Positions 9,974-60,690 of a stretch of DNA of 64,000 bases are shown one piece after another. Positions within the stretch are counted from its first letter, which is position 1, and the number at the start of each line of letters is the position of its first letter. The notes beneath the pieces were generated by a model. That model saw nothing but the letters and a program-made list of their open reading frames with translations, had not been told where the DNA came from and searched no databases. The position numbers and the translations under genes were made by a program. Source of the DNA: Dastarcus helophoroides (taxonomy: Eukaryota > Arthropoda > Insecta > Coleoptera > Bothrideridae); NCBI GenBank assembly GCA_028583605.1, contig CM053327.1:41988059-42052058 (forward strand), in the 5' to 3' direction.

Positions 9974-10209
9974 TGATGGAACGGACTGGTCCTTGGTTAT
10001 CTTCAAAAATTGAAACACAGAACTTGTCCCCTGAAACCAAAAAAAATTAAAAAACACAACAAAGGTTGCTCTAACGCGTTTCGACAGCCAAGCTGTCATC
10101 TTCAGAGAGAAGATGACAGCTTGGCTGTCGAAACGCGTTAGAGCAACCTTTGTTGTGTTTTTTTTTAATTTTTCTTGGTTTCAGGGGACAAGTTCTGTGT
10201 TTCAATTTA
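9974..10209. mobile_element. Palindromic foldback element with central ribozyme motif
   Basis: The left arm runs from tgatggaacggactggtcct through ctgaaaccaa and the ggttgctctaacgcgtttcg block. The right arm is its reverse complement, but its outer ~35 bp (the ttatcttcaaaaattg side) is lost after about 10209. The arms meet at cttcagagagaag near 10100-10112, so nearly the entire element can fold as one hairpin. Relatives are at 8841-9437, 20100-20345, 35685-35796, 43343-44400, 44840-45065 and 60028-60640. No open frame is present. Confidence 0.85.
10069..10109 (-). ncRNA. Minimal hammerhead ribozyme motif (Penelope-element type)
   Basis: On the minus strand: helix I 5' CUCU (10109-10106), core CUGAAGA (10105-10099), one extra U, stem II GACAGC-UUG-GCUGUC, core GAAA (10082-10079), helix III as the self-complementary ACGCGU, U17, then helix I 3' AGAG pairing with CUCU. 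Predicted cleavage lies between 10073 and 10072. Minimal hammerheads with a very short palindromic helix III, thought to act as dimers, are known from metazoan Penelope-like elements. The extra U before helix II departs from the textbook core, so activity is uncertain. Confidence 0.65.
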
Positions 10210-18845: not shown

Positions 18846-18908
18846 ATGTTAACTTCACCCAGCAACCAGTATCTTAGGCCGGAATACTTAACTCCTCTAC
18901 CGACCACA
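18846..18908 (+). CDS. noc: Noc/Elbow zinc-finger protein, coding exon 1 (21 codons)
   Basis: The exon reads MLTSPSNQYLRPEYLTPLPT plus one Thr and ends at ACA, directly followed by the splice donor GTAAGT (18909-18914). This N-terminal block (NQYL-PEYL-PLPTT before DAKKSPLALLAQTCSQIG) is the conserved start of insect Noc/Elbow proteins, which is why I join this short exon to 34220-35506 although they are 15.3 kb apart. The junction is phase 0 on both sides, so the frame continues as PLPTT-LDAKKSPLA. An in-frame stop lies 22 bp upstream of the ATG. The exon would not be found by frame length alone. Join confidence rests on family conservation and matching splice phase. Confidence 0.85.
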
Positions 18909-18914
18909 GTAAGT

Positions 18915-23081: not shown

Positions 23082-24635
23082 TACAGGGTGAGCGAAACTC
23101 GATGTCTCAGCTCTATTATAAGACAAGGAAAATCGATATAAGAAATCGGAAAAAAGGTTCTTAAATTGGATTAAATAAGGTCCATTTTAGGTCAAATGTT
23201 CATATTTTTCCAGATCTGGAAACCAAAGTAATATCATTGAACTTTTTTTTTCAGAAACACCCCCCGTATTTTTGCATATTCAAAAAGAACTAGTTTTTCT
23301 AAACAAATTTTATTTCAAAAAAATTTGTATCTTTTTTGGCTAAAAAGTTATAAGCAATTTTATTGTAAAAATAGAATATTATCAAAAATTCGTAATTACT
23401 TCGATTTAAACAAGTAGCCTTTGGAAATTCAATAAAGCGAAAATCAAAGAATAGGGGCATCTGTCAATCATTGAACTAATAGTTGACAAACATTTTTTGT
23501 TGCCATTTGTCTTTGATAAACGTTCACGTAAATGATATACAGGGTGAGTCTGAAAGAAAGGGCCAACGCTAAACTGGAGATACTAGACGCCAAAATATTG
23601 CGATTGAGCTCAACATGCCTTATACCAATGTGGCTCGTTTAAGAGATACAGGGCGTTCAAAGTTTAAATTTTATTCTGAAAGTTTTTGATAATTAAGAAA
23701 GTTTTGATGCTATAAATTTAATATTTGGGAATTTTATGTTTTTTTGGTGTGGGAATTACGAGTTTTGAATTTATATTGATGTTTCTCCCAGAGGGCGCTA
23801 GTTTCGCATAATAATTTACGTAAATTAAAACATATTTTTTTATCTGTAGAGTTTTACTTAAAACAAGTAGCCAATATAAAAGAACGATCAATTTTACAAA
23901 GAAAAGGTACTCTTGTTTAAGTCGTCTAAAGCCAACGGTTTTTAGGATATTTTCATTTAAAAGTTTCAATGTATTTTTTTATGATTTTTGAATATTGAAT
24001 TTACAGCAGCAAAACTTTCTCAATTATTGAGAAATTTCAGAATAAAATTTAAACTTTGAAGGCCCCGTATCTCTTAAACCAGTCACATTAGTATAAAGCA
24101 TGTTGAGCTCAATCGTAATATTTTAATGTCTAGTATCTCCCCTTTTACATTGGCCCATTCTTTCTGATTCACCCTGTATTATTTATTAGTTTATAGGGAA
24201 TTTCAAAAGAACCCTAGAAGAGCAGGTGAATATTCTCCGAGATACCCAGAACAGGTTATTCCAAATTTAAAAATATTTAATAGATTTGTCTCCAAAAGCT
24301 GTTTGATTAAATCGTTCCAATTGTGCATTTTTAATAATACATTTTTTATAATAAATTTACATAACTTTTGGACGGAAAAAATACCGAATTTTTTTTGTTT
24401 ACAAAATTTGTTTAGAAAAATTAATTCTTTTTAAATGTGGAAAAATATAGGTTTGTTTCTGGAGAAAAAAAGTTCAATGACGTCATTACTTTGGTTTCCA
24501 AATCTGGAAAAATATTCAGATTTAGCTTAAAATGGACCTCATTCAATCCAGAATAAGAATCTCTTTTCAGATTTCTTACACCATCTTTGCTTTTCTCATA
24601 ATAGCGCCGAGACATCGAGTTTCGCTCACCCTGTA
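23082..24635. mobile_element. Outer terminal-inverted-repeat element, ~1.55 kb
   Basis: The left end tacagggtgagcgaaactcg is matched in reverse complement at the right end near 24616-24635. Similarity continues inward for roughly 200 bp with decay (for example tttccagatctggaaaccaa on the left and ttggtttccaaatctggaaa on the right). A second TIR element is nested inside. No transposase was recognised; likely a non-autonomous DNA transposon of unassigned superfamily. Confidence 0.7.
23538..24178. mobile_element. Inner nested terminal-inverted-repeat element, ~640 bp
   Basis: The left end tacagggtgagtctgaaaga mirrors the right end tttctgattcaccctgta. Similarity extends inward past gctcaacatg / catgttgagc and gagatacaggg / cccgtatctc. 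The ends share the TACAGGGTGA word with the outer element, so the two are related. A minus-strand 83-codon frame (23718-23969) lies inside; I recognise no domain in it. Confidence 0.75.
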
Positions 24636-24768
24636 CTGATAAATATTGAGGTTGCAGTCTAGCTTTCTCTGGGGTTTGGTGTTCAAAGTACAAATTTCAG
24701 ATTTAAAGCTATTCAACCTCATAAAATCAAGTTGCAGGGGTACTCACTTTTGGTTTTCCCAATTTACT

Positions 24769-25265
24769 GATATGTGCATTGGAATCGAGTCTTCTGGGCT
24801 TTTCCAGAGAACGACCGCTTGCTAAGTGTTTGTGGTTCATCTGTATGTAGCTTGGCTACCTATGATAAAACACGCATATTGTGGTCTATATTCAAACCTA
24901 ATAGTCGATGCATTAGAATTGAGTCTTCTAGGTTTTTCCATAGGGCGACCCCTTGCTAAGCCTCTGTGGTTCAACTGTTGGTATTTCGGCTACCTAGGAT
25001 TTACAAAACACGCAAATGTAGTCTAGATTTAAACCTGTGTGTGACCTGTGTATTAGAATACTGATCTGTGCATTAGAATCGGGTCTTCTAAGCTTTTCCA
25101 GGGAGCGACCGCTTGTTAAGCGTTTGTGGCTCAACTGTTGGTAGTTAGACCACCTATGATCCACTATATGCGCATACTATAGCCTAGATTGAAAGCTACT
25201 GATCTGTGCATTAGAATCGAGTCTTCTAGGTCTTTCCAGCGAGCGACCCCTTGCTAAGCGTCTGT
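24769..25265 (+). repeat. Four ~140-bp monomers of the ribozyme-repeat body, without the ribozyme
   Basis: Units start with gatctgtgcattagaatcg or a variant near 24769, 24903, 25062 and 25202 (steps 134, 159 and 140 bp). Each continues through cgaccgcttgctaagcg, ctcaactgttggtag and cacctatgatccactat. That order is collinear with the segment following the hammerhead in the ~380-bp monomers (ctgtgcattagaatcc, gcaaccgcttcgctagg, tcaactgttggtagttcagc, ctatgattcactatac). The hammerhead and the rest of the long monomer are missing, so this is a diverged short form of the same family. Confidence 0.7.
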
Positions 25266-25390
25266 GGCTCAACTATTGGTATGTGGCTTCACTATTGGTC
25301 TGTGGCTTAACTATTGGTCTGTGGCTTAACTATTGGTCTGTGGCTCAGCTGATGTACAACTATTGGTCTGTGGCTCAACTGACGTACCAT
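25266..25390 (+). repeat. Short tandem repeat of ctattggtctgtggct
   Basis: About five imperfect copies of a ~20-bp word, apparently slipped from the end of the last 140-bp monomer. Confidence 0.8.
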
Positions 25391-25704
25391 GCACGTGTAG
25401 AGTGTAGTCTAGATTGTATCTTATTTAAAAAACTGCAAATGTTTGAGCTAAAACTGTGTAAGTTGTCAAGAGAATAATCGGTGGCAAAGTGCGAAAACGT
25501 CGTACAACAAAAAACAAACGATTGACCAAGGACAATTCACGCGGAGGTAAAATATATAAGTATTTCGATGAGGGACTCCGAGTAACGGTCGAGTTGATGA
25601 AGGTGGCAAATAAAAAAAAAAAAAAATAGGTAGCCGTCGAAAATTTGGAGACTTCTTAGTTTGTGGTGCCCTCTTTCCATTTTCATATGAACTACTTGAC
25701 TGGA
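25391..25704. other. Intronic spacer, nothing recognised
   Basis: Includes a poly-A run at about 25612-25626. The 84-codon minus-strand frame at 25466-25720 shows no recognisable domain. Confidence 0.45.
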
Positions 25705-25879
25705 TGCAAGAAGAATGCAACCTAGACTACAAATTCATGCAGCCCTCCAGGTGGCGTGTATAGTGAATCATAGGTAGCTGAACTACCAACTGTTGAAACA
25801 CTGCCACCTAGCGAAGAGGTTGCTCTCTAGGAGAGTTCCCAGAAGACAAGGATTCTATAATGCACAGACCAATAGGTTT

Positions 25880-25980
25880 GAACGTTTATTAGATTCGAAG
25901 TTTGGAAACCAAATACCGGTTTCGATCTTGTTAGATCTCGTCAGTTTGGTATATCCAACTCGAATGCTAATAAATGTTCC
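25880..25980 (-). ncRNA. Type I hammerhead ribozyme, copy 1
   Basis: On the minus strand: a long helix I 5' arm ending CCAAA, core CUGACGA, stem II GAUCU-AACA-AGAUC, core GAAA, helix III from the palindrome ACCGGU (A15.1 to U16.1), A17, then UUUGG pairing with CCAAA and a long bulged outer helix I (aacatttattag against ctaataaacgtt). The predicted cleavage triplet is GUA, with the cut between 25914 and 25913. All core positions required by the CUGANGA...GAAA consensus are present. Confidence 0.8.
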
Positions 25981-26260
25981 GACAAGTAAGTACTAAAACA
26001 ATCACAGGCGTCAAGCGAGTGACTCTTTAGTACTACCACCTATTGGTCCATAGAGAAACTATGGCCATCGCCAACAATGTCGTATGCAAGAAGAATGCCA
26101 CCTAGACTACAAATTCATGCAGCCCTCCAGGCGGCGTGTATAGTGAATCATAGGTAGCTGAACTACCAACGGTTGGAACACTGCCACCTAGCGAAGCGGT
26201 TGCTCTCTAGGAGAGTTCCCAGAAGACAAGGATTCTATAATGCACAGACCAATAGGTTTT

Positions 26261-26361
26261 GAACATTTATTAGATTCGAAGTTTGGAAACCAAATACCGG
26301 TTTCGATCTTGTTAGATCTCGTCAGTTTGGTATATCCAACTCGAATGCTAATAAATGTTCC
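26261..26361 (-). ncRNA. Type I hammerhead ribozyme, copy 2
   Basis: Same architecture as copy 1 with an intact core, ACCGGU at 26296-26301 and predicted cleavage between 26295 and 26294. Only isolated substitutions outside the core separate it from copy 1. Confidence 0.8.
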
Positions 26362-26640
26362 GACAAGCAAGTACTAAAACAATCACAGGCGTCAAGCGAG
26401 TGACTCTTTAGTACTACCACCTATTGGTCCATAGAGAAACTATGGCCATCGCCAACAATGTCGTATGCAAGAAGAATGCAACCTAGACTACAAATTCATG
26501 CAGCCTTCCAGGTGGCGTGTATAGTGAATCATAGGTAGCTGAACTACCAACTGTTGAAACACTGCCACCTAGCGAAGCGGTTGCTCTCTAGGAGAGTTCC
26601 CAGAAGACAAGGATTCTATAATGCACAGACCAATAGGTTT

Positions 26641-26716
26641 GAACGTTTATTAGATTCGAAGTTTGGAAACCAAATACTGGTTTCGATCTTGTTAGATCTC
26701 GTCAGTTTGGTATATC
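26641..26716 (-). ncRNA. Hammerhead ribozyme, copy 3, truncated outer helix I
   Basis: Core CUGACGA, stem II and GAAA are intact. Helix III reads ACCAGU instead of ACCGGU, leaving A-U and C-G pairs around a CA loop. The 5' arm of helix I is lost after AUAUACCAAA, where the array ends, so only the five inner base pairs of helix I remain. Confidence 0.65.
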
Positions 26717-27467
26717 TGACTGGATATTTTAAAGACCTTCGACAGCTTCGTCAGCTTCAGATATATAAAAAAAAATGTACACAGTTCTCTTCTTTATATT
26801 TCTGAGAATACAACATTCTCGTAAATTTCCTGAGAATACCACATTCTTGCAAGTAATCAGAAGTCAAAAGAAATCCTTTGAATGAAATCACGGACCTCAC
26901 ATTATTTAGTCGATCATCGTGAAGGGTTCAAATGCTAACAATACGATACGATTCGAAGTTATCTTGGACCGAATACTGATGACGAGCTAACTTGTATAAA
27001 TGGGAAATATTATCGAAATCAACCAATCTCCTCTCAGTTACTTCAACGTTTCAAGAAAGGAAATCATATCAACAAAGCGTCAGCTTTGTGTTAAGGGGGG
27101 ATAACTTTGGAAAGAGCAGCAGATCACCCTGAAAACAAACAGAGGAAACCCTTAAAATCCAAAGGATGTAAATTGAGGTCTGGAAGAAAAGACAGACGGT
27201 TGCGGTCCTTTTTAGTTTATCTCTGTTCGTGGTTGGTGTCTATCGAAAATTCATTTAGGTTTACGGAAGCTTCCCTCTGACTATATCAGAGATTGGATTA
27301 TTTTTTATTTTTGTTTTTCCAACTTTTCGCATTGCTAGGTTGGTCGGAAAGAATTTTCTTTTTTTTAATAAAAATGGAAGGCGATTTTCTTTTAGTGAAA
27401 TAAAATTATGATTCATTATGCTTAAATAGCAATTTTTATTCAATTAAATGTTGTCCATTCTGATCCA
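26717..27467. other. Intronic sequence between arrays, no gene
   Basis: No recognisable coding or RNA feature. A pair of similar words (ctgagaatacaacattctcg / ctgagaataccacattcttg) lies near 26802-26850. Confidence 0.45.
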
Positions 27468-33600: not shown

Positions 33601-34219
33601 CATATGCCTTTAAGATAAACAGAATCATTTGAAAGGCAAACTATTTCAATCTTCTCATAAGCAAAGCTCATTTTTTATTGCTTGTCTTATGTAGATTTTC
33701 CTCTATATTAATAACTCTCTACTTTGAGCCAAATGCTAGATATATGTTTTTTCTGATTTTACTTTTGGTTAAATAGTTGTGTTTCTTAATTCCAACATAG
33801 ATTGACCTAAATGTTTTTCCCATGTAGATCTCATAATTGGGTATTTGTATAGTTTGGGCTTGTCTGAGTTCACCACCTCTAGCTTATTTTGCAAATCGTT
33901 TTGATACTCGACGTGACTCTTAAAAAATTAACGTAGTTCATTATCTGCAATCTACCATCTTGAAACAGAAGGATCAAAAGAATGGAATCGTTTTAGAAAT
34001 AACCGGGTTTTTATTATTTCGGAAATTAAAATTAATAACTATTAACATCTGCTGCGCAATTACCAATAATTTATCAACTACTTCATGACTAAAACCAGTA
34101 ATTGGTACCATCTGTTGGTTTATGCAATTTTTTCGTACATTATACTTGTAATTAATATTTACAAATTGATGGCAAATTATAATCGAGCAATAAATTAAAT
34201 ATAGGCTTCTTTGTTACAG
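33601..34219 (+). other. 3' intronic sequence leading to the noc acceptor
   Basis: Non-repetitive AT-rich sequence ending in the splice acceptor ttctttgttacag. No other feature recognised. Confidence 0.5.
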
Positions 34220-35506
34220 CTAGATGCGAAGAAAAGTCCTTTGGCCCTCTTAGCCCAAACATGTAGCCAAATTGGTGCCGATGCCCCAAATGCAAAGCTA
34301 ATACAAAGTGCTGAAAAATCCAGCAAATCAAACAAATCCGAATCTGGTAAAGAGAAATCCGACACTTCATCGCACCACAACAACAAATCGACTTTCAAAT
34401 CCTACGAGCAGAGCAACGTACGTGAAAAATCAAAATCTCCCGAGGAACGATCCAGTTCTACTTCTGGGGGTAGTCGCGTCCGAACTCCCTTGACCACAAA
34501 AGGTACAAATTCCGGCCGATGCGGCAGCAATCAGAGTGCGACGTCCGCTAGGGAATCCCCCAACGTAGGGTATACTCAAGAGCGTAAGTCTCCAACTGAG
34601 ACGACGACGGAAAGGTTATCTCCGGAGAAGAATAGCGAGAGGGGCAGCCCACAAACCCCTACTTCTTCGGCGGCGAAAACTGCATTTACTCCAAACATTT
34701 TGACATCCTCATCCGATCCGTCAATCAAGGATTTGCCACTGGGAACCTTCAAACCAGGCGTGCCCGTTACTTCGGCTTTTTTGGGTGGTTATCCCACCCA
34801 TGGCTTTGCTTTACCGATGGACCTGATGGCTAGCAGTTTAATGTCGCAGCATCATGCTTTGAAGAACGGTGGGTTGAGTCCATATTTAAGTTATGGTCGG
34901 TTGAAACCGTCAGACTTACCGACAGTGTGTCGCGATCCTTATTGTACAGGGTGCGGTGTTAATTCCCATTTGGTTGGTGCTAAATCACCAGTGTCATGTC
35001 CAGCCGGTTGTGCTCAGTGTGATCATGCTAAAGTGCCGACTTCTAATGGTTATCTTGGACATAATCCAGCTGCTGCGGCGTATGCGCACGCTCAGTTAGC
35101 CGCTTTGGCCGCAGCTTCGCATTTGCCCTATGTCTGCAACTGGATATCCGGTGATGCTGCTTATTGCGGAAAAAGGTTCTCCAGTTCTGAAGAACTGTTG
35201 GCTCACTTACGGACTCATACTAGTGTTGCTTCAGTTTCGGAAGCTTCGACGGCTCTCTCTTTGTTGGGTTCGCCTAGTTTGCCGCCGACTCATCCATTGT
35301 TCCACAGGACGTATCCTACGCCGCCGTTGAGTCCATTGGCCACTGCTAGGTATCATCCTTATACCAAACCGTCGCTGCTGCCTCCTTCTCTTACGTCCTC
35401 GCCTTTAAGTAGTTTTCCTTTGTCACATCCTGGATTGCCTCCGTATTTATCGCCTTATTCTTTGTATGGGCCTCGTTTGGGATCCTCACCTGGTATGCAT
35501 CCCTAA
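34220..35506 (+). CDS. noc: Noc/Elbow zinc-finger transcriptional regulator, coding exon 2
   Basis: Exon 2 supplies residues 22-449 of a 449-residue protein and ends with TAA. Visible in order (full-length numbering): DAKK then SPLALLAQTCSQIG at 27-40, the Sp-type motif that opens the conserved part of NET-family proteins (Noc, Nlz, Elbow, Tlp-1). Next is a long Ser/Thr/Lys-rich disordered stretch (about 45-180), then TFKPG near 198, related to the Groucho-binding FKPY region. A Cys box CRDPYCTGC (258-266) is followed by SCPAGCAQC, then an Ala-rich YAHAQLAALAAA segment. A single atypical C2H2 finger has Cys327, Cys337, His350 and His354 (C-X9-C-X12-H-X3-H). The tail is Pro/Ser/Leu-rich. In Drosophila Noc and Elbow are nuclear co-repressors acting in tracheal, ocellar and appendage patterning. 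The sequence does not say which paralogue name applies. Upstream TTG/ATG readings in the acceptor were rejected in favour of the splice. Confidence 0.95.
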   Translation, partial: LDAKKSPLALLAQTCSQIGADAPNAKLIQSAEKSSKSNKSESGKEKSDTSSHHNNKSTFKSYEQSNVREKSKSPEERSSSTSGGSRVRTPLTTKGTNSGRCGSNQSATSARESPNVGYTQERKSPTETTTERLSPEKNSERGSPQTPTSSAAKTAFTPNILTSSSDPSIKDLPLGTFKPGVPVTSAFLGGYPTHGFALPMDLMASSLMSQHHALKNGGLSPYLSYGRLKPSDLPTVCRDPYCTGCGVNSHLVGAKSPVSCPAGCAQCDHAKVPTSNGYLGHNPAAAAYAHAQLAALAAASHLPYVCNWISGDAAYCGKRFSSSEELLAHLRTHTSVASVSEASTALSLLGSPSLPPTHPLFHRTYPTPPLSPLATARYHPYTKPSLLPPSLTSSPLSSFPLSHPGLPPYLSPYSLYGPRLGSSPGMHP

Positions 35507-36424
35507 AGTTCAGGGTCTCTAAGCCAAATATAAAGCTGTGTTACTATAGACTTACCTAGTCTCACAAGATTACCTAACGGTTTGTGCCCAGTCTCGAATA
35601 CTTAATGTTGGGATTTCTCGATGGTCCTTAATTATGCGAGAAGACTAAAAAAATGTTAATGTTTACAGGTGTGCATTAAGAATAATTGAAATACAGAACT
35701 TGTCCCCTGAAACCGAGAAAGAGTCTTTCTTGGTTTCAGGGGACAAGTTCTGTGGTTCAATTTTTGAAGATAACCAAGGACTAGTCCGTTCCATCAAAAA
35801 AACAAAAAATTAAGCATAATAATTAGAGATAATTTGGAAGGGGGATGCCCTATTATTATTAAGCCGATGTTAGTAAAAACTATGAAGTTTGTAAATGTCA
35901 GGTGTCACAATTTTATATTATTTGTTCTTTGACTCGCTGGAGCTCTAAGCGGGACCAAAAAAATTCTCCAATTTTAAGAATTCAAGCAAACGTAATGAAA
36001 ACAGTTCTCAAAAATCCGTAAATCTAAAAAAAATTAACCAAATGACTAAACAAAGCGCACCACTGTTGATTACAATCACCTAAGCTTTTAAAACAAATTT
36101 AAGTTTGCTAAAAATGAAAAAAATCAAAGCAGCTACAAAACAGCTTACTTTACAATACTGGACACCTTAATAATGTATCAGGTAAAAATGCCCCTCATAA
36201 ATTTAGAGCAAAAGCTCATGAAGACTTCTCTATAAATCCTGACTTTAAATTTGGAAATTTGAGCGGTCTCTGTTCTTTAGTAATTTTGCTCCAATTTAGA
36301 ATTTTTTTCATAAATTCTAGATTATCTTTTTTTCTAATATTTTAGCTTTTAAAAAATGTTTACATTTCAAGAAGTTTAAATTAAATCAATTAATTAATAA
36401 AGATGTTAAAAGAATACATTTTTT
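35507..36424 (+). other. noc: 3' flank / probable 3' UTR of noc
   Basis: Follows the stop codon. Contains a foldback insertion (35685-35796), the AU-rich words tgtaaatg near 35899, and a possible poly(A) signal AATAAA at 36396-36401 just before the next array. The true transcript end was not determined. Confidence 0.4.
35685..35796. mobile_element. Foldback family copy in the noc 3' flank, ribozyme core deleted
   Basis: The left part attgaaatacagaacttgtc...accgagaaag meets the right part gtctttcttggtttcagggg...cgttccatc directly. The hairpin arms remain but the whole central ggttgctctaacgcg / ribozyme segment is missing, as is the outer left arm. It lies ~180 bp downstream of the stop codon and would form a ~38-bp hairpin if transcribed. 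Confidence 0.8.
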
Positions 36425-38660: not shown

Positions 38661-39408
38661 ATGTCAACTCGAAATCTACACTTTTTTCCATTAATCAGAC
38701 CGTCAAGTTTCCAAATTATTGAGCTTAAACTGAAAATTTTGGTCCTCTGACATATTTCTCGAAGTGTCCACCTGAAGTATATCAGATTAGTTCCATAAAA
38801 TTTGTTTTTATTTATTAATTTATTTTTTTTTTCAAAACTCTCAACTAAGACTTGGAATTTTTATTGCGAATTTAAGATCGAAGTTTCTAAATTATTTTAT
38901 AAATTTCGTTTTCTTTTAATTTCGATGTTTTTAAAGTTCCAAATGCAAATATGATTTCCATTTCAAAACTAGTAACTTGTAACTATTAACTGGTAACTAT
39001 TAACTAGTAACATTTTTTTTGGAAAGTATTACTTTTTTAAGCTTTATTGTAGACTCTTATTGGTTGAAAACCTTATGGTTATTAATTTCATTTGAAATTT
39101 TTTGTGTTTTAATTTATTATTTTTAAGTACTTCTTTCTCCTTTATTGTTCTCTTTCCTTGTTATGCATTGCTGATGAGCTGAAATGAGAACAAAACATTG
39201 ATGTCCAATACTACCAATTTTTTAAAATATTTTCATGATTTATTTAAAAAATATTTTATGTCTAATTTTAGTCTTGGATATTTCAGTTTTTTCCAATTCT
39301 ATATAAATTAAACTAACTTATTTTATTGTTACCTGTCCAGAGGTAAAGTTTTAAAAAGTTAGTTATCACCTAGTCATATTTCAAAAAAATCTTTCAGAGT
39401 ATTCTAAT
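38661..39408. other. AT-rich sequence, nothing recognised
   Basis: Only small local repetition (taactattaactggtaactattaac near 38975). Confidence 0.45.
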
Positions 39409-39421
39409 ATCCAATAGGGTT

Positions 39422-39522
39422 GAACATTTATTAGATTCGAAGTCTGGAAACGAAATACCGGTTTCGATCTTGTTAGATCTCGTCAGTTTGGTATATCCAA
39501 CTCGAATGCTAACAAATGGTCC
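39422..39522 (-). ncRNA. Hammerhead ribozyme, copy 4, weakened helix I
   Basis: Minus-strand core, stem II and ACCGGU are intact. The inner helix I 3' strand reads UUUCG instead of UUUGG, breaking one pair with CCAAA. Confidence 0.65.
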
Positions 39523-39530
39523 GACAAGTA

Positions 39531-39620
39531 AGCATTCGAGTTTGATATACCAAACTGACGAGATCTAACAAGATCGAAACCGGTATTTGGTTTCCTAACT
39601 TCGAATCTAATAAATGTTCA
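39531..39620 (+). ncRNA. Hammerhead ribozyme, copy 5, intact core
   Basis: Plus strand: CCAAA (39550-39554), CUGACGA (39555-39561), GAUCU-AACA-AGAUC, GAAA, ACCGGU, A17, UUUGG. Predicted cleavage between 39585 and 39586. The outer 5' arm of helix I is shortened by the head-to-head junction. Confidence 0.75.
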
Positions 39621-39898
39621 AACCTATTGGTCTGTGCATTAGAATCCCTGTCTTCTGGGGAACGTTTCCTAGAGAGCAACCGCTTCGCTAGGTGGCAGTG
39701 TTTCAACTGTTGGTAGTTCAGCTATCTATGATTCACTATACACGCCGCCTGGAGGGCTGCATGAATTTGTAGACTAGGTTGCATTCTACTTGCATACGAC
39801 ATTGTTGGCGATGGCCATAATTTCTCTGTGGACCAATAGGTGGTAGTACTAAGAGTCACTCGCTTGACGTCTGTGAATGTTTTAGTACTTACTTGTCG

Positions 39899-40000
39899 GA
39901 ACATTTGTTAGCATTCGAGTTGGATATACCAAACTGACGAGATCTAACAAGATCGAAACCGGCATTTGGTTTCCAAACTTCGAATCTAATAAATGTTCAA
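39899..40000 (+). ncRNA. Hammerhead ribozyme, copy 6, U16.1 mutated
   Basis: The core and both helix I strands are intact, but helix III reads ACCGGC, so U16.1 of the cleavage triplet is C. The NUH rule is broken, which predicts loss of cleavage. Confidence 0.7.
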
Positions 40001-40150
40001 ACCTATCGGTCTGTGCATTAGAATCCTTGTCTTCTGGGAACTCTCCTAGAGAGCAACCGCTTCGCTAGGTGGCAGTGTTTCAACTGTTGGTAGTTCAGCT
40101 TCCTATGATTCACTATACACGCCGCCTGGAGGGCTGCATGAATTTGTACT

Positions 40151-40286
40151 CTAAAAAATGAATAAAACAAAGTGAAAAATTTTTCAGTTTTAATCTTTTT
40201 TCCAAATTATTTATTTTAAATTTTAATTCTATTACTTTCTTTTTAAGTTATTAAATTTCACAATCAAAATGTTCAATTCTCATCAT
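40151..40286. other. AT-rich spacer
   Basis: Nothing recognised. Confidence 0.4.
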
Positions 40287-41251: not shown

Positions 41252-41291
41252 TCACACAGGCGACCTCTGTTGATTCTACAGTACTTACCTG
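41252..41291 (+). repeat. Remnant of the ~380-bp monomer upstream of solo hammerhead
   Basis: gtcacacaggcgacctctgt...cagtacttacctggaac aligns with gagtcactcgcttgacgtct...tagtacttacttgtcggaac, the part of the monomer just before the ribozyme. Confidence 0.6.
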
Positions 41292-41386
41292 GAACATTTG
41301 TTGGCATTCGAATTGGATATACCAAACTGACGAGATCTAAGAAGATCGAAACCAGTCTTTGGTTTCCAAATTTCGAATCTAATAAA
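41292..41386 (+). ncRNA. Solo hammerhead ribozyme, copy 7, GUC cleavage site
   Basis: CCAAA, CUGACGA (41327-41333), stem II GAUCU-AAGA-AGAUC, GAAA (41348-41351), helix III A-C-[CA]-G-U, C17, UUUGG. Helix III has two pairs with a 2-nt loop, and the triplet is the canonical GUC. Predicted cleavage between 41357 and 41358. No second monomer follows. Stem II keeps its pairing although the loop has changed. Confidence 0.75.
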
Positions 41387-41449
41387 TAGAGACCGGATTT
41401 TAAGCACAATCAAATAAGTTAAAAAGGTGAACAAAACGTTAAATTAGGC

Positions 41450-44839: not shown

Positions 44840-45065
44840 AACGGACTGGTCCTTGGTTATCTTCAAAAATTGAAATATAAATCTTGTCCCCTGAAACCAA
44901 GAAAGATTAAAAAACACAACAACGCGTTTCGACAGCCAAGCTATCATCTTCAGAGAGATACTGCAGTAGAAATGCGTTAGACTAACCTCTGTTATGTTTT
45001 TTAATCTTTCTTGGTTTCAGGGGACAAGATTTGTATTTTAATTTTTGATTTCAGTTTTTGTTAGC
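44840..45065. mobile_element. Foldback element copy with damaged ribozyme
   Basis: The left arm gaaacggactggtccttggt...aagaaagattaaaaaacaca and the right arm gttttttaatctttcttggt...caagatttgtatttta flank cgcgtttcgacagccaagct. The minus-strand hammerhead (44928-44960) keeps CUGAAGA and GAAACGCGUU. Stem II is GAUAGC/GCUGUC with one G-U pair, and the AGAG strand of helix I is missing, replaced by GUUG. Confidence 0.75.
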
Positions 45066-50240: not shown

Positions 50241-53200
50241 GTAACAACCACCCCAATGTAAACGCAATTTATAATCTTAAAGGTGACGATCCACTTTATT
50301 GAGAATGTATTACAGACACCAAGGGCTGTACTCTCCCGCACGAAAGCAGTACCTGGCACATTAACTAATGAGGAACAAAGTCCACCGCCCGCTCCCCCAT
50401 CTCGATCGCTATTATTCGAACACCTCGACCGCCGATAAATAAATAAATAAACTGAATATAAATGAATAGATAGTTTTCTATTATGACGATAATGATAAGA
50501 GAACTCCCAAATTTTTCACTGTAACAACTACTCCAACGTAAACGCAATTTATAATCTTAAAGGTGACGACCCACTTTATTGAGAAGGTATTACAGACACC
50601 AAAGGCTGTACTCTTTCGCATGAAAGCATTTGGCACATTAACTAATGAAGAATAAAGTTAACCGCCGGCTCCTTCGTCTCGATCACTATCATTCGAACAC
50701 CTCGACCGCCGATAAATAACTAACTAAATTGAATATAAATGAATAGATAGTTTTCGGTTATGATGATAATGATAAGAGAACTCCCAAATTTTTAACGGTG
50801 TCAACTACCTCAACGTAAACGCAATTTATAATCTTAAAGGTGACCTACTTTATTGAGAAGGTATCACAGACACCAAGGGCTGTACTCTTCCGCATGAAAG
50901 CGATACTTGGCGCATTAACTAATGAGGAAGAAAGTCGACCGCCGGCTCCCTCGCCTCGATCATTATCATTCGAACACCTCCACCGCCGATAAATAACTAA
51001 ATAAATTGAATATAAATGAATCAATAGTTTTCCATTCTGATGATAAAGATGAGAGAACTCCCAAATTTTTCACGGTAACAACTACTCCAACGTAAACGCA
51101 ATTTATAATCTTAAAGGTGACGACCCACTTTATTGAGAAGGTATTACAGACACCAAGGGCTGTACTCTTTCGCATAAAAGCATTTGGCACATTAACTAAT
51201 GAAGAATAAAGTTAACCGCCGGCTCCTTCGTCTCGATCACTATCATTCGAACACCTCGACCGCCGATAAATAACTAAATAAATTGAATATAAATGAATAG
51301 ATAGTTTTCGGTTATGATGATAATGATGAGAGAACTCCCAAATTTTTAACGGTGTCAACTACCTCAACGTAAACGCAATTTATAATCTTAAAGGTGACCC
51401 ACTTTATTGAGAAGGTAGCACAGACACCAGGGGCTGTACTCTCCTGCATGAAAGCAGTACTTGGCAAATTAACAAATAAGGAAGAAAGTCGACCGCTCCC
51501 CCGTCTCAATCACTATTATTCGAACTCATCGACCACCGATATAGTACTAATTAAATTGAATATAAATGAATCGATAGTTTTTGATTGTGACGATAATGAT
51601 AAGAGAACTCCCCAATTTTTAACGGTGACAACTACCCCAACGTAAACGCAATTTATAATCTTAAAGGTGACGACCCACTTTATTGAGAAGGTAGCACAGA
51701 CACCAAGGGGTGTACTCTCCCGCATGAAAGCAGTACTTGGCAAATTAACTAATAAGGAAGAAAGTCGACCGCTCCCCCGTCTCAATCACTATCATTCGAA
51801 CTCATCGACCGCCGATAAAGAACTAATTAAATTGAATATAAATGAATCGATAGTTTTCGATTGTGATGATAATAATAGGAGAACTCCCAAATTTTTAACG
51901 GTGACAACTACCCCAACGTAAACGGAATTTATAATTTTAAAGGTGACGACCCACTTTATTGAGAAGGTAGCACAGACACCAAGGGCTGTACTCTTCTGCA
52001 TGAAAGCGTTACTTGGCACTTTAACTAATGAGGAATAAAGTTAACCGCCGGCTTCTTCGTCTCGATCACTATCATTCGAACACCTCGACCGCCGATAAAT
52101 AATTAAATAAATTGAATATAAATGAATCGATAGTTTTCGATTATGATGATAATGATAAGAGAACTCCCAAATTTTTCACAGTAACAACTACCCTAAGGTA
52201 AACGCAATTTATAATCTTAAAGATGACGACCCACTTTATTAAGAAGATATTACAGACACCAAGGGCTGTACTCTCCCGCATGAAAGCGGTATTGAGAAGG
52301 TAGCACAGACACCAAAGGCTGTACTCTCCTGCATGAAAGCAGTACTTGGCAAATTAACTAATAAGGAAGAAAGTCGACCGCTCCCCCGTCTCAATCACTC
52401 ATTCGAACTCATCGACCGCCGATATAGTACTAATTAAATTGAATATAAATGGATCGATAGTTTTTGATTGTGACGATAATGATAAGAAAACTCCCCAATT
52501 TTTAACGGTGACAACAACCCCAACGTAAACGCAATTTATAATCTTAAAGGTGACGACCCACTTTATTGAGAAGGTAGCACAGACACCAAGGGCTGTACTC
52601 TTCTGCATGAAAGCGGTACTTGGCGCATTAATTAATGAGGAAGAATGTCGACCGCCAGCTTCCCTGTCTCAATCACTATCATTCGAACACCTCGACCGCC
52701 GATAAATAAATAAATTGAATATAAATGAATCGATGGTTTTAGATTATGACAATAATCATAAGAGAACTCTCAAATTTTTCACTGTAACAACTACCCCAAC
52801 GTAAACGCAATTTATAATCTTAAAGGTGACGACCCACTTTATTGAGAAGGTAGCACAGACACCAAGGGATGTACTCTCCCGCATGAAAGCAGTACTTGGC
52901 ACATTAACTAATGAGAAAGAAATTTGACCGCTCCCCCGTCTCAATCACTATCATTCGAACTCATCGACCGCCGATAAAGAACTAATTAAATTGAATATAA
53001 ACGAATCGATAGTTTTCGATTGTGACGATAATGATAAGAGAACTCCCAAATTTTTCACGGTAGCAACTACTCCAACGTAAACGCAATTTATAATCTTAAA
53101 GGTTACGACCCCCTTTATTGAGAAGGTATTACAGACACCAAGGGCTGTACTCTTTCGCATGAAAGCGTTTGGCACATTAACTAATGAAGAATAAAGTTAA

Positions 53201-53545
53201 CCGCCGGCTTCTTCGTCTCGATCACTATCATTCGAACACCTCGACCGCCGATAAATAACTAAATAAATTGAATATAAATGAATAGATAGTTTTCGGTTAT
53301 GATGATAATGATAAGAGAACTCCCAAATTTTTAACGGTGTCAACTACCCCAACGTAAACGCAATTTATAATCTTAAAGGTGACGACCCACTTTATTGAGA
53401 AGGTAGCACAGACACCAAGGGCTGTACTCTCCCGCATGAGTACTTGGCACATTAACTAATGAGGAAGAAATTTGACCGCTCCCCCGTCTCAATCACTATT
53501 ATTCGAACTCCTCGACCGCCTATAAATAACTAAATAAATTGAATA

Positions 53546-54424: not shown

Positions 54425-55617
54425 CTACATATAAATAAATCGATAGTTTTCGATTATGATGATAATGATAAGCGAATTCCCAAATTTTTAACGGTAACAA
54501 TTACCCCAACGTAAACGCAATTTATAATCTTAAAGGTGACGACGCACTTTATTCACAAGGTAGCACAGACACCAAGGGCTGTACTCTCCAACAGAAAGCA
54601 GAACCTGGCACATTAACTAATGAGGAATAAAGTCGACCGCCGGCTCCCTCGTCTCAATTACTATCATTCGAACATCTCGACCGCCGATAAAGAACTAAAT
54701 AAATTGAATATAAATGAATCGATAGGTTTCGATTGTGACAATAATGATAAGGGAACTCCCAAATTTTTAACGGTGACAATTACCCCAACGTAAACGCAAT
54801 TTATAATCTTAAAGGTGACGACCCACTTTATTCAGAAGGTAGCACAGATACCAAGGGCTGTACTCTCCAACAGAAACCAGAACCTGGCACATTAACTAAT
54901 GAGGAATAAAGTCGACCGCCGGCTCCCTCGTCTCAATTACTATCATTTGAACATCTCGACCGCCGATAAAGAACTAAATAAATTGAATATAAATGAATCG
55001 ATAGGTTTCGATTGTGACAATAATGATAAGGGAACTCCCAAATTTTTAACGGTGACAATTACCCCAACGTAAACGCAATTTATAATCTTAAAGGTGACGA
55101 CCCACTTTATTCACAAGGTAGCACAGACACCAAGGGCTGTACTCTCCCACAGAAAGCAGAACCTGGCATATTAACTAATGAGGAATAAAGTCGACCGCCG
55201 GCTCCCTCGTCTCAATTACTATCATTCGAACATCTCGACCGCCGATAAAGAACTAAATAAATTGAATATAAATGAATCGATAGTTTTCGATTGTGACAAT
55301 AATGATAAGAGAACTCTCAAATTTTTGACGGTAACAACTACCCCAACGTAAACGCAATTTATAATCTTAATGGTGACGACTCACTTTATTGAGAAGGTAT
55401 TACAGACAGCAAGGGCTGTACTCTCCCACAGAAAGCAGAACCTGGCACATTAACTAATGAGGAATAAAGTCGACCGCCGGCTCCCTCGTCTCAATTACTA
55501 TCATTCGAATACCTCGACCGCCGATAGATAACTAAATAAATTGAATGTAAATGAACCGATATTTTTCGATTGTGATGATAATGTTAAGAGAACTCCCAAA
55601 TTTGTCACGATATCAAC

Positions 55618-56567
55618 TTTTTCTTGCAGTGCTTATTCGCTCCGAATGTTGGCGACTAGCATGGCTATTCTTACTTTATTGGTAGCTGCGCGGAACACAC
55701 CAGTTGTGGTCATGTTAAACCATTTTCTTAAATTCTAAAGTCATGAGATTCGTCTTCGCCCTGGTTCTCTCTTACCGCACATTTTCCCTTGCAGTATTAG
55801 TTAGAGAAGGCCGTATCTTTGTTCGTTTCTCATAATCTGGCCCAAGTATTCCAATTTGCGTTTCCTAATTGTAGCGGTAATTTCGCATTCGTTCCCCGTT
55901 CTGTGTAGGACTTCGTTATTCGTGACATGGTCGATCCAGGAGATTTTTAGGATATGACTATAACACATCATCTCAAACGCTTCAAGTTTTTTCAATGACG
56001 CTTCGGGGAGTGTCCAAGCCTCCGTTCCGTGGAGCAAAATTGAAAAAGTATAACATTGGAGTACGAGGATCTAGATTTTCAGTGGCAGGTCATGGCTTCT
56101 GAAGACACTACTCATTTTCATAAATGCTGCTCTAGCTTTTACTATACGTTGTTTTATTTCTAGTCCAGTGAATGATCCCGTTGACTATTTACATTAGTGC
56201 CAAGCTATGTATAGCTTTCCGCCCTTTCAGTTGGTTGTTGGTTGATTATCAGTTGTGTATTCAGGATTATGCTGATACTGATAACCATGTATTTTGTCTT
56301 CTTTGTTTTTAGGTTTAATCCATAACGCTGGCTGATTTCGGTTATGCGTGTCATTAAAATTTGTAGTCCTTTCATACTATCTGCGAATGTTACTGCGTCG
56401 TCCACGTACCTAATGTTATTTAAGATTTTGCCGTTGATTAGTATGCCTTCATTAAATTCTTTTAAGACTTGTTTGAAGATATGTTCGAAGTATATATTAA
56501 ACAGCATGGGGGATAATATACATCCTTGTCGTACTCCGAGCTCTATTGAGACTGCTTCTGTTAGTAG
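55618..56567 (-). pseudogene. 5'-truncated LINE fragment (RTE-like reverse transcriptase)
   Basis: The minus strand encodes the palm motifs GVRQGCILSPMLFNIYFE and IRYVDDAVTFADS (catalytic box YVDD), followed by RITEISQRYGLNLKTKKTKY. Downstream (56037-55801) is the conserved C-terminal block LEAFEMMCYSHILKISWIDH...IRKRKLEYLGQIMRN seen in insect endonuclease-reverse transcriptase elements. A break between about 56040 and 56205 puts these in separate frames. The 5' junction with the satellite is near 56567, so the element lacks its endonuclease and much of its reverse transcriptase. The clade name is tentative. Confidence 0.85.
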
Positions 56568-56997
56568 GTAAGAAGGTATTGCAGACACCAAGGGCTGTAC
56601 TCTCCCGCATGAAAGCAGTACCTGGCACATTAACTAATGAGGAACAAAGTCGACCGCCGGCTCTTTTGTCCCAATCACTATTTTTCGAAGACCTCGACCG
56701 CCGATAAATAACTAAATAAATTGAATATAAATGAATCGATAGTTTTCGATTATGATGGTGATGATAAGAGAACTCCCAAATTTTTCACGGTAACATCCAC
56801 ATCAACGTAAACGCAATTTATAATCTTAAAGGTGACAACCCACTTTATTGAAGAGGTATTACTGACACCAAGGGCTGTACTCTCCTGCGTGAAAGCGGTA
56901 CCTGACACATTAACTAATGAGGAAGAAATTTGACCGCTCCCCCGTCTCAATCACTATCATTCGAACTCCTCGACCGCCTATAAATAACTAAATAAAT

Positions 56998-57840: not shown

Positions 57841-58560
57841 CTATCATTCGAACACCTCGACCGCCGAAAACAGCTAAATAATTTGAATATAAATGAGTCG
57901 ATAGTTTTTGATTATGATGATATTGATAACAGAACTCCCAAATTTTTCACGGTATCAACTACCCCAACGTAAACGCAATTTATAATTTTAAAGGTGACGA
58001 CCCACTTTAATGAGAAGGTATTACGGATACCAAGGGATGTACTCTCCCGCATAAAAGCAGTACCTGACACATTGACTAATAAGGAACAATGTCGAACGCC
58101 GGCTCCTTCGTCTCGATCACTATCATTCGAACGCCTCCACCGCCGACAAATAATTAAATAAATTGAATATAAATGAATTGATAGTTTTCGATTATGATGA
58201 TAATGATAACAAAACTCCCAAATTATTCACGGTAACAACTATCCCAACGTAAACGCAATTTACAATCCTAAAGCTGACGACCTACTTTATTGAGAAGGTA
58301 TTATGGGCACCAAGGGCTGTACTCTCCTGCTTGAAAGCAGTACTTGGCGCATTAACTAATTAGGAAGAAAGTTAACCGGCGACTCCCTCGTCTTAATCAC
58401 TAACATTTAAACACCTCGACCACCGATAAATAATTAAATAAATTGAATATAAATGAATCAATAGTTTTCGATTATGATGATAATGATAAGAGAACTCCCA
58501 AATTTTTTTACGGTAGCAACCACCCCAAACGTGAACGCAATTTATAATCTGTCATGAATG

Positions 58561-60027: not shown

Positions 60028-60331
60028 GGAACGGACTGGTCCTTGGTTATCTTCAAAAATTGAAATACAAATCTTGTCCCCTGAAACCAAGAAAGATTAA
60101 AATACACAACAGAGGTTGCTCTAACGCGTTTCAGAGAGATAGTCTCTGAAAATGATAGTTTGCCTATCGAAATGCGTTAGGGCAACCTCTGTTGTGTTTT
60201 TTAATCTTTCTTGGTTTCAAGGGACAAGATTTGTATTTCAGTTTTATACAATACAATACAAATCTCGTCCCCTGAAACCAAGAAAGATTAAAAAACACAA
60301 CAGAGCTTGCTCTGAGCATTTCAGACAGATA

Positions 60332-60370
60332 CTCTCTGAAGATGATAGCTTGCCCATTGAAACACATTAG
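60332..60370 (+). ncRNA. Decayed minimal hammerhead motif
   Basis: CUCU, CUGAAGA and GAAA are retained, but stem II is weakened (GAUAG against CCAUU) and helix III reads ACACAU, so folding would be poor. Confidence 0.5.
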
Positions 60371-60416
60371 AGCAACCTCAACAGCAGAGGTTGCTCTAAC
60401 GCATTTCAGAGAGATA

Positions 60417-60457
60417 CTCTCTGAAGATGATAGCTTGCCTATCGAAACGCGTTAGAG
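60417..60457 (+). ncRNA. Minimal hammerhead ribozyme motif (Penelope-element type), best copy
   Basis: CUCU (60417-60420), CUGAAGA (60421-60427), extra U, stem II GAUAG-CUUGC-CUAUC, GAAA (60444-60447), helix III palindrome ACGCGU, U17, AGAG (60454-60457) pairing with CUCU. Predicted cleavage between 60453 and 60454. Relative to 10069-10109, both strands of stem II have changed (GACAG/CUGUC to GAUAG/CUAUC), a compensatory pair that supports the fold. Confidence 0.7.
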
Positions 60458-60631
60458 CAACCTCTGTTGTGTTGTTTAATCTTTCTTGGTTTCAAGGGAC
60501 AAGATTTGTATTTCAGTTTTATACAATACAATACAAATCTTGTCCCCTGAAACCAAGAAAGATTAAAAAACACAACAGAGGTTGCTCTGAGCATTTCAGA
60601 GAGATACTCTCTGAAGATGATAGCTTGCCTA

Positions 60632-60690
60632 CAGTGGCGGCTGGCGTATAGGTACTGTGGAACTGCAGCACCCCCAATTTCGCTTACAGT
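60632..60690 (+). mobile_element. hAT-like terminus interrupting a ribozyme
   Basis: CAGTGGCGGCTGGCGTATAG begins inside the ribozyme stem II word gcttgccta and matches the CAGTGGCG style of hAT ends. The other end was not found in the window. Confidence 0.5.

Follow-up and report, generated by a model that had tools for sequence, protein, structure and literature searches.

The window, that is, the whole 64,000-nucleotide stretch of the Dastarcus helophoroides genome analysed here, very probably carries a family of non-coding, non-LTR retrozymes copied via self-cut RNA. The family looks like a new member of the known animal retrozyme class with a few unusual details, and would place retrozymes with an amphibian-type ribozyme in a beetle, antisense within a developmental gene. 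Array 1 (25706–26716, minus strand) was a head-to-tail tandem repeat of 2.7 copies with a unit of ~381 bp, for which Tandem Repeats Finder reported 25704–26716, a period of 381, 2.7 copies, and 97% matches. When split at the predicted cleavage site, it consisted of a 5′ partial unit, units of 380 and 381 nt, and a 210-nt 3′ partial unit (Table 1). The hammerhead cores on the minus strand started at 25944, 26325, and 26705, with spacings of 381 and 380, which confirmed the ~380-bp minus-strand tandem described in an earlier account based on the bare sequence (hereafter, the sequence-only reading).

In the available parts of PMC7229834, metazoan non-LTR retrozymes (Acropora, Mytilus, and Ambystoma) are described as tandem repeats of 150–450 bp with a type I hammerhead, low GC content, duplications of >4 bp when present, and a highly self-paired predicted circle. 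Such elements have no LTR, primer binding site, or polypurine tract, their hammerheads form tertiary contacts between loops 1 and 2, and they occur as many dispersed genomic copies expressed as linear and circular RNA. The repeat lengths in the window were inside this range (a period of 381 in array 1 and a spacing of 379 bp in a second array, array 2), and the GC content of the monomer was 43.3%, i.e., below 50%. The longest start-codon ORF touching array 1 had 84 aa and lay mostly outside the array, and no stop-to-stop ORF of at least 110 aa overlapped array 1 or array 2. The proposal of the sequence-only reading that this is a non-coding retroelement of the retrozyme type was thus supported by the ~380-bp tandem, the GC content, and the lack of a long ORF, together with a flanking repeat of >4 bp at one array and a strong circular fold (see below).

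Table 1. Coordinates and strands of the retrozyme copies, their parts, and the host gene exons in the window
Feature	Position	Strand	Remarks
Retrozyme array 1	25706..26716	-	Partial (positions ~340-381), 380 nt, 381 nt, and partial (to position ~208), head to tail
Left copy of 9-bp direct repeat ATCCAGTCA	26717..26725	-	Putative target site duplication
Right copy of 9-bp direct repeat ATCCAGTCA	25697..25705	-	
Monomer m1	26295..26674	-	380 nt
Monomer m2	25914..26294	-	381 nt, cleavage site to cleavage site; GC 43.3%
Type I hammerhead	25891..25962	-	Predicted cut 25914/25913
Type I hammerhead	26272..26343	-	Predicted cut 26295/26294
Type I hammerhead	26652..26723	-	Predicted cut 26675/26674; helix III ACCAGU; outer helix I overlaps insertion junction
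Retrozyme array 2	39531..40153	+	Partial (55 nt), full 379-nt monomer, partial (189 nt)
Array 2 hammerheads	39537-39608, 39916-39987	+	Second with C for U16.1, predicted inactive
Inverted retrozyme piece	39411..39532	-	Monomer positions 305 through 381 to 46; hammerhead 39433-39504; head to head with array 2
Solo hammerhead piece	41280..41387	+	Monomer positions 301 through 381 to 30; hammerhead 41309-41380
Diverged tandem units	24762..25416	+	Three BLAST matches, 72-73% to monomer positions 36-161; fourth unit by eye
First coding exon, Elbow-like gene	18846..18911	+	Followed by GTAAGT
Second coding exon, Elbow-like gene	34220..35503	+	C2H2 zinc finger, E 5.7e-5, just below Pfam cut-off

Hammerhead motifs and predicted folding

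The unit junctions of array 1 read CUGACGA-GAUCU-AACA-AGAUC-GAAACC(G/A)GUA, preceded by CCAAA and followed by UUUGG, which by the motif rules is a type I hammerhead with cleavage predicted after GUA. Each array 1 repeat carried it with an intact CUGACGA/GAAA core, a 5-bp stem II, and a long bulged helix I. The sequence-only reading had named the same CUGACGA, 5-bp stem II, GAAA, and CCAAA/UUUGG, and its cut sites (25914/25913 and 26295/26294) agreed with the motif, which predicts a third at 26675/26674; its ACCGGU failed for the 5′-most array 1 copy, which has ACCAGU. It had also called the hammerhead complete; the type I motif stood, but because helix III is minimal, completeness holds for a dimer only. 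The core CUGACGA...GAAA was unchanged in all 7 hammerhead copies of the family, while the monomers differed by 1–6%. The ACCGGU palindrome of helix III was whole in 4 of the 7, with ACCAGU in two and ACCGGC in one. An internal loop in helix I and an AACA loop II, which might form tertiary contacts with each other, were present.

At gathering scores, Rfam gave no matches in the whole 64-kb window. Under relaxed settings, the best-matching Rfam hammerhead family was HH9 (RF02275; overlapping same-clan matches were dropped in the scan), which in the 2 kb around array 1 scored 34.4, 34.4, and 27.3 bits (E values of 2.2e-6, 2.2e-6, and 4.2e-4, becoming 6.9e-5, 6.9e-5, and 1.3e-2 over 64 kb). Over the window, HH9 matched all 7 family copies with 27.3–35.5 bits (E values of 3.1e-5 to 1.3e-2), and none of them reached its gathering score of 52 bits (best, 35.5 bits). 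As a control, sub-threshold microRNA models in the same relaxed window scan matched hairpins elsewhere with E values down to 1.8e-8, so the HH9 E values alone would not settle the presence of a hammerhead. A structural scan requiring the core, a stem II of at least 3 pairs, an A-U helix III, and a helix I of at least 3 pairs found 6 sites in the window, each in the retrozyme family, compared with a mean of 0.06 and a maximum of 1 in 200 dinucleotide shuffles. The copy at 39916–39987 was missed because its C for U16.1 breaks the A-U rule. The structural scan against shuffles, together with the HH9 model matches, ruled out a chance origin of the motifs. Our own hammerhead model, when run over the whole window, returned the 7 copies from which it was built and one 13.3-bit match (E = 1).

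Sites with a CTGAAGA...GAAACGCGTT-like pattern near 10.1, 44.9, and 60.3–60.5 kb were considered as hammerheads, and none passed the strict structural scan. On reading the sequence, the 60-kb sites were parts of a fold-back, MITE-like hairpin, while those near 10.1 and 44.9 kb were set aside by motif likeness only. Fold-back, MITE-like hairpins of this kind, superficially hammerhead-like through the pattern, occupied 60051–60660 and perhaps also 10072–10136 and 44862–45049, with several sub-threshold microRNA-model matches. One further HH9 match, a weak one (26.1 bits and E = 0.03 in the window-wide scan), was located at 39153–39228 (plus strand), ~180 bp from the inverted piece; its core is CUGAUGA, with CAAAAC where GAAAC is expected, and its sequence is otherwise unlike the family. 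It is either a decayed hammerhead of another family or a chance match.

The circular monomer was predicted to fold at −139.8 kcal/mol, compared with −93.1 ± 6.1 kcal/mol in 100 dinucleotide shuffles, none of which was as good (z = −7.6). With 72% of it paired, the predicted circle is highly self-paired, as in retrozymes. The linear monomer gave z = −8.8, and the raw folding energy of the circular antisense monomer was −111.4 kcal/mol. Beyond its internal loop, helix I continued as a bulged helix with 25 pairs past the inner five (positions 316–341 with 8–34). For 36 named pairs (helices I, II, and III and the extension), 95.9% of 221 cells were paired across the 7 copies, falling to 22.9–58.1% when slid by 1–3 columns. 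This pairing is no covariation proof because the structure was drawn from one copy, none of the 36 pairs had substitutions in both partners, and every one of the 500 column shuffles equalled the observed values; covariation was accordingly ruled out as proof of the helices. Of the three outcomes that the sequence-only reading had named as refuting it, two, the lack of a hammerhead model match and the lack of helix I pairing across the copies, did not occur: a match was found in all 7 copies, though below the Rfam cut-off, and the pairing was found, though without covariation.

Because helix III consists of just one A-U pair enclosing palindromic CCGG, hammerhead cleavage probably needs a dimer. 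A single native hammerhead was computed at −5.7 kcal/mol with the one-pair helix III and −11.2 kcal/mol without that pair, and a misfold in which the core CUG is paired at −16.6 kcal/mol; as computed, the ribozyme is weak as a single copy. The native double hammerhead, with a shared 6-bp ACCGGU helix III, reached −31.7 kcal/mol, and the dimer optimum was −35.6 kcal/mol, i.e., 3.9 lower. When the two copies were joined on one strand by a 30-nt linker, the double native form was at −28.0, two single native forms at −22.4 (no helix III) or −11.4, and two misfolds at −33.2 kcal/mol, which leaves the double native fold 5.2 kcal/mol above two misfolded copies. Calculated without terms for tertiary contacts and core pairs, these energies rank the double native form ahead of the single one, yet both stay above the misfold.

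Other copies, insertion boundaries, and host gene

A BLAST search of the monomer over the 64-kb window retrieved both arrays plus two pieces, with copies in either orientation. The sequence-only reading had overlooked array 2, the inverted piece, the solo hammerhead, and a set of ribozyme-less diverged tandem units. In the solo piece, the cleavage triplet is GUC instead of GUA and the loop is AAGA instead of AACA, changes that should be tolerated; an upstream extension past 41280 was not significant (65 of 500 shuffles were equally good). The BLAST matches of the diverged units spanned 24894–25281 (plus strand), with the fourth unit beginning by eye at 24762. The units lay 0.3 kb from array 1 with starts 130–165 bp apart, and by eye they were without the monomer segment from ~197 through 381 to ~33, where the ribozyme sits. 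No convincing degenerate hammerhead was found in them: our own model, applied to 24300–25700 with filters off, gave 16 matches, the best with 12 bits (E = 0.046). That these units conserve the body structure was likewise not clearly supported: RNAalifold on 9 sequences gave −9.21 for folding and +1.79 for the covariation term, and both partners had changed in 3 of 24 predicted pairs. The last diverged unit contains an internal ~19-bp minisatellite (25260–25345). Exact-pattern scans of viral and prokaryotic contig collections yielded no relatives, as expected because the element is an animal one.

The 9-bp repeat ATCCAGTCA is flush with both ends of array 1 and exceeds the 4 bp used for retrozymes. 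Because it flanks both ends, the element limits were set at 25706–26716, within one base of those in the sequence-only reading (25705..26716). Among 20,000 random pairs of same-size stretches of the window, 204 shared a string of at least 9 bases anywhere. No target site duplication was found at array 2, where the best shared string had 5 bp. Array 1 begins at monomer position ~340 and stops at ~208, and array 2 begins at ~327 and stops at ~190, with no end at the cleavage site. According to PMC11167929, reverse transcription of a Penelope-like element (PLE) of Anolis starts internally. The head-to-head arrangement at array 2 would be compatible with 5′ inversion during target-primed integration.

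Adjacent monomers differed by 1.8–5.3% (5.3%, or 10/189, between adjacent units of array 2), which counts against a single monomeric circle as template, since such a circle would not yield these differences at insertion. Among the three array 1 copies of positions 1–210, there were 8 variable columns; the outer copies agreed against the middle one in 6, and one column each set either outer copy apart. With array 2 as the outgroup, columns 30, 126, and 165 had a state common to the outer copies and absent from the middle copy and array 2, and no column united either other pair of array 1 copies. This A-B-A pattern, defined by 3 columns in one array, points to a template that contained two or more different monomers, or else to gene conversion at a later stage. 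Repeated copying of a single monomeric circle would instead yield repeats that start out identical and then diverge each on its own, so a template exceeding one monomer in length is suggested.

The ORF at 34205–35503 forms one exon of a zinc finger gene, with a splice acceptor before 34220. Among the best 120 of 1712 related proteins, the best named matches were from Henosepilachna (75% identity) and Tribolium (Elbow, 76%). Within these best 120 of 1712, many were called Elbow, and one bee protein lower down was called Noc; the named proteins up to rank 76 come from beetles. Going by names among the matches listed, the gene is closest to Elbow. Array 1 is antisense in a 15.3-kb intron because the coding exons lie at 18846–18911 and from 34220, and array 2 and the solo piece are downstream of the coding region. 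The location antisense in a noc intron given by the sequence-only reading therefore held for strand and intron, but not for the gene, whose beetle relatives are named Elbow and which is closer to Elbow than to noc. Also present in this region were a hairpin lying ~200 bp past the 3′ end of the Elbow-like coding sequence (35693–35753, both strands; mir-5615 model, 49.2 bits, cut-off 82) and, downstream of the gene, arrays of a ~277–280-bp repeat (50241–53545, 54429–55603, and 57841–58549) and a reverse transcriptase fragment on the minus strand (56208–56633; RVT_1, E = 5e-16), which we take to be LINE-like by its look.

Explanations for the spread of the family

The element was probably copied through RNA. 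Under the retrozyme reading, read-through transcripts of an array would self-cleave, chiefly in the double hammerhead form, where two ACCGGU palindromes pair into a 6-bp helix III. The resulting unit-length or dimeric RNA would be circularised by a host ligase and copied from an internal start by the reverse transcriptase of an autonomous LINE or PLE, and this internal start would lead to new arrays ending away from the cleavage site. The points against this reading are the scores below the Rfam gathering level, the better E values of sub-threshold microRNA models in the window, the lack of covariation, the double fold lying above the misfolds, the palindrome retained in 4 of 7 copies, the lack of a duplication at array 2, and the differences between adjacent monomers. 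As a tentative and rather doubtful refinement, this may be an insect retrozyme gated by dimerisation, whose hammerhead, as computed, misfolds alone and gains a 6-bp helix III only through a palindrome shared between two repeats, so that dimers or longer forms would be the products of RNA processing and the templates of reverse transcription; the A-B-A pattern would then be the trace of a heterodimeric template, and the ribozyme-less units would reflect spreading of the body without the ribozyme. The insertion boundaries, the variants, and the ribozyme-less relative make the copying mode of retrozymes (monomeric circle, dimer, or linear multimer, and which reverse transcriptase) testable.

An origin of the repeats as pseudo-LTR remnants of a PLE, and not as free-standing retrozymes, is unlikely. 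Type I hammerheads with a minimal helix III also occur in tandem in PLEs (PMC7761336 and PMC6155905, as far as their available text goes). The minimal helix III here resembles that of PLE hammerheads (same part of PMC7761336), the array ends inside the monomer are like the internal starts of PLE reverse transcription (excerpt of PMC11167929), and the head-to-head piece at 39411–39532 would also suit a PLE. However, the monomers abut at 379–381 bp in both arrays with no coding segment between them, and no ORF with a reverse transcriptase and GIY-YIG was found between the directly adjoining repeats, which makes a PLE origin less likely. The ORF lengths given above for the arrays also argue against it, as do the HH9-like internal loop and long extension of helix I and the Pfam results for three window ORFs, which included one RVT_1 match (56208–56633) and no GIY-YIG. 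A PLE could be the machinery moving the family.

Satellite DNA growing by unequal crossing over, with a fossil hammerhead and no RNA intermediate, is very unlikely. The presence, 0.3 kb away, of diverged tandem units that share the body but lack the ribozyme, the loss of U16.1 in the second array 2 hammerhead, the loss of the helix III palindrome in 3 of 7 copies, and HH9 scores under the curated cut-off would all suit a satellite, but not the flush 9-bp repeat at array 1, the occurrence of short arrays at different sites and on either strand, or the solo piece. The core invariant in 7 of 7 copies with monomers differing by 1–6%, and the strong folding of the ribozyme strand, also speak for a retrozyme rather than a satellite. 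Spread by DNA circles that leave an array and reinsert elsewhere is hardly likely at all. It would also explain array ends at any monomer position and the mixing of monomers (A-B-A), but would by itself predict neither a target site duplication nor a head-to-head inversion and would leave the hammerhead without a role.

Comparison with known systems

The Rfam family HH9 (RF02275) is amniote and intronic, occurring as a single copy rather than in tandem. It shares with the beetle motif the internal loop in helix I, an A-rich loop II, and a short helix III, but the beetle copies score 27.3–35.5 bits against its gathering score of 52. Among insect repeats, the pDo500 satellite has, going by its name, a unit of ~500 bp. 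In the part of PMC2837043 available, this tandem repeat of Dolichopoda cave crickets has a self-cleaving hammerhead with single and double forms proposed; stem III of the double form is made within a single sequence, whereas helix III of the beetle family would be shared. PLE hammerheads have the minimal helix III and tandem copies of the beetle family (partial texts of PMC7761336, PMC6155905, and PMC11167929), but the reverse transcriptase/GIY-YIG ORF of PLEs is absent between the beetle repeats.

The coral, mussel, and axolotl retrozymes covered in the available parts of PMC7229834 share the sequence anatomy of the beetle family. In the same text, Mytilus repeats measure ~350–390 bp, retrozyme sequences are species-specific, and insects are named within a general list of groups with such repeats. 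Single copies of the coral ribozyme cleave fast and those of mussel more slowly, while the axolotl ribozyme cleaves much better as a dimer; unlike the coral and mussel ribozymes, that of the beetle has a one-pair helix III and a palindromic tetraloop, as in axolotl HHR_Amex1 (PMC7229834, same parts). PMC7761336 attributes a stable helix III to most type I motifs of invertebrates, unlike the minimal one of the beetle. For the newt hammerhead, the double form is favoured (PMC6155905, in part). The newt and axolotl elements are like the beetle family in their one-pair helix III and palindromic tetraloop, with a double hammerhead that works there and is predicted here; as far as the available descriptions go, they differ in host, in monomer length (330–350), and in sequence, the latter by description without alignment. 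Compared with the elements in the accessible text of PMC7229834 and PMC7761336, the beetle family appears to be a new member, one in which an insect carries a helix III like that of amphibians.
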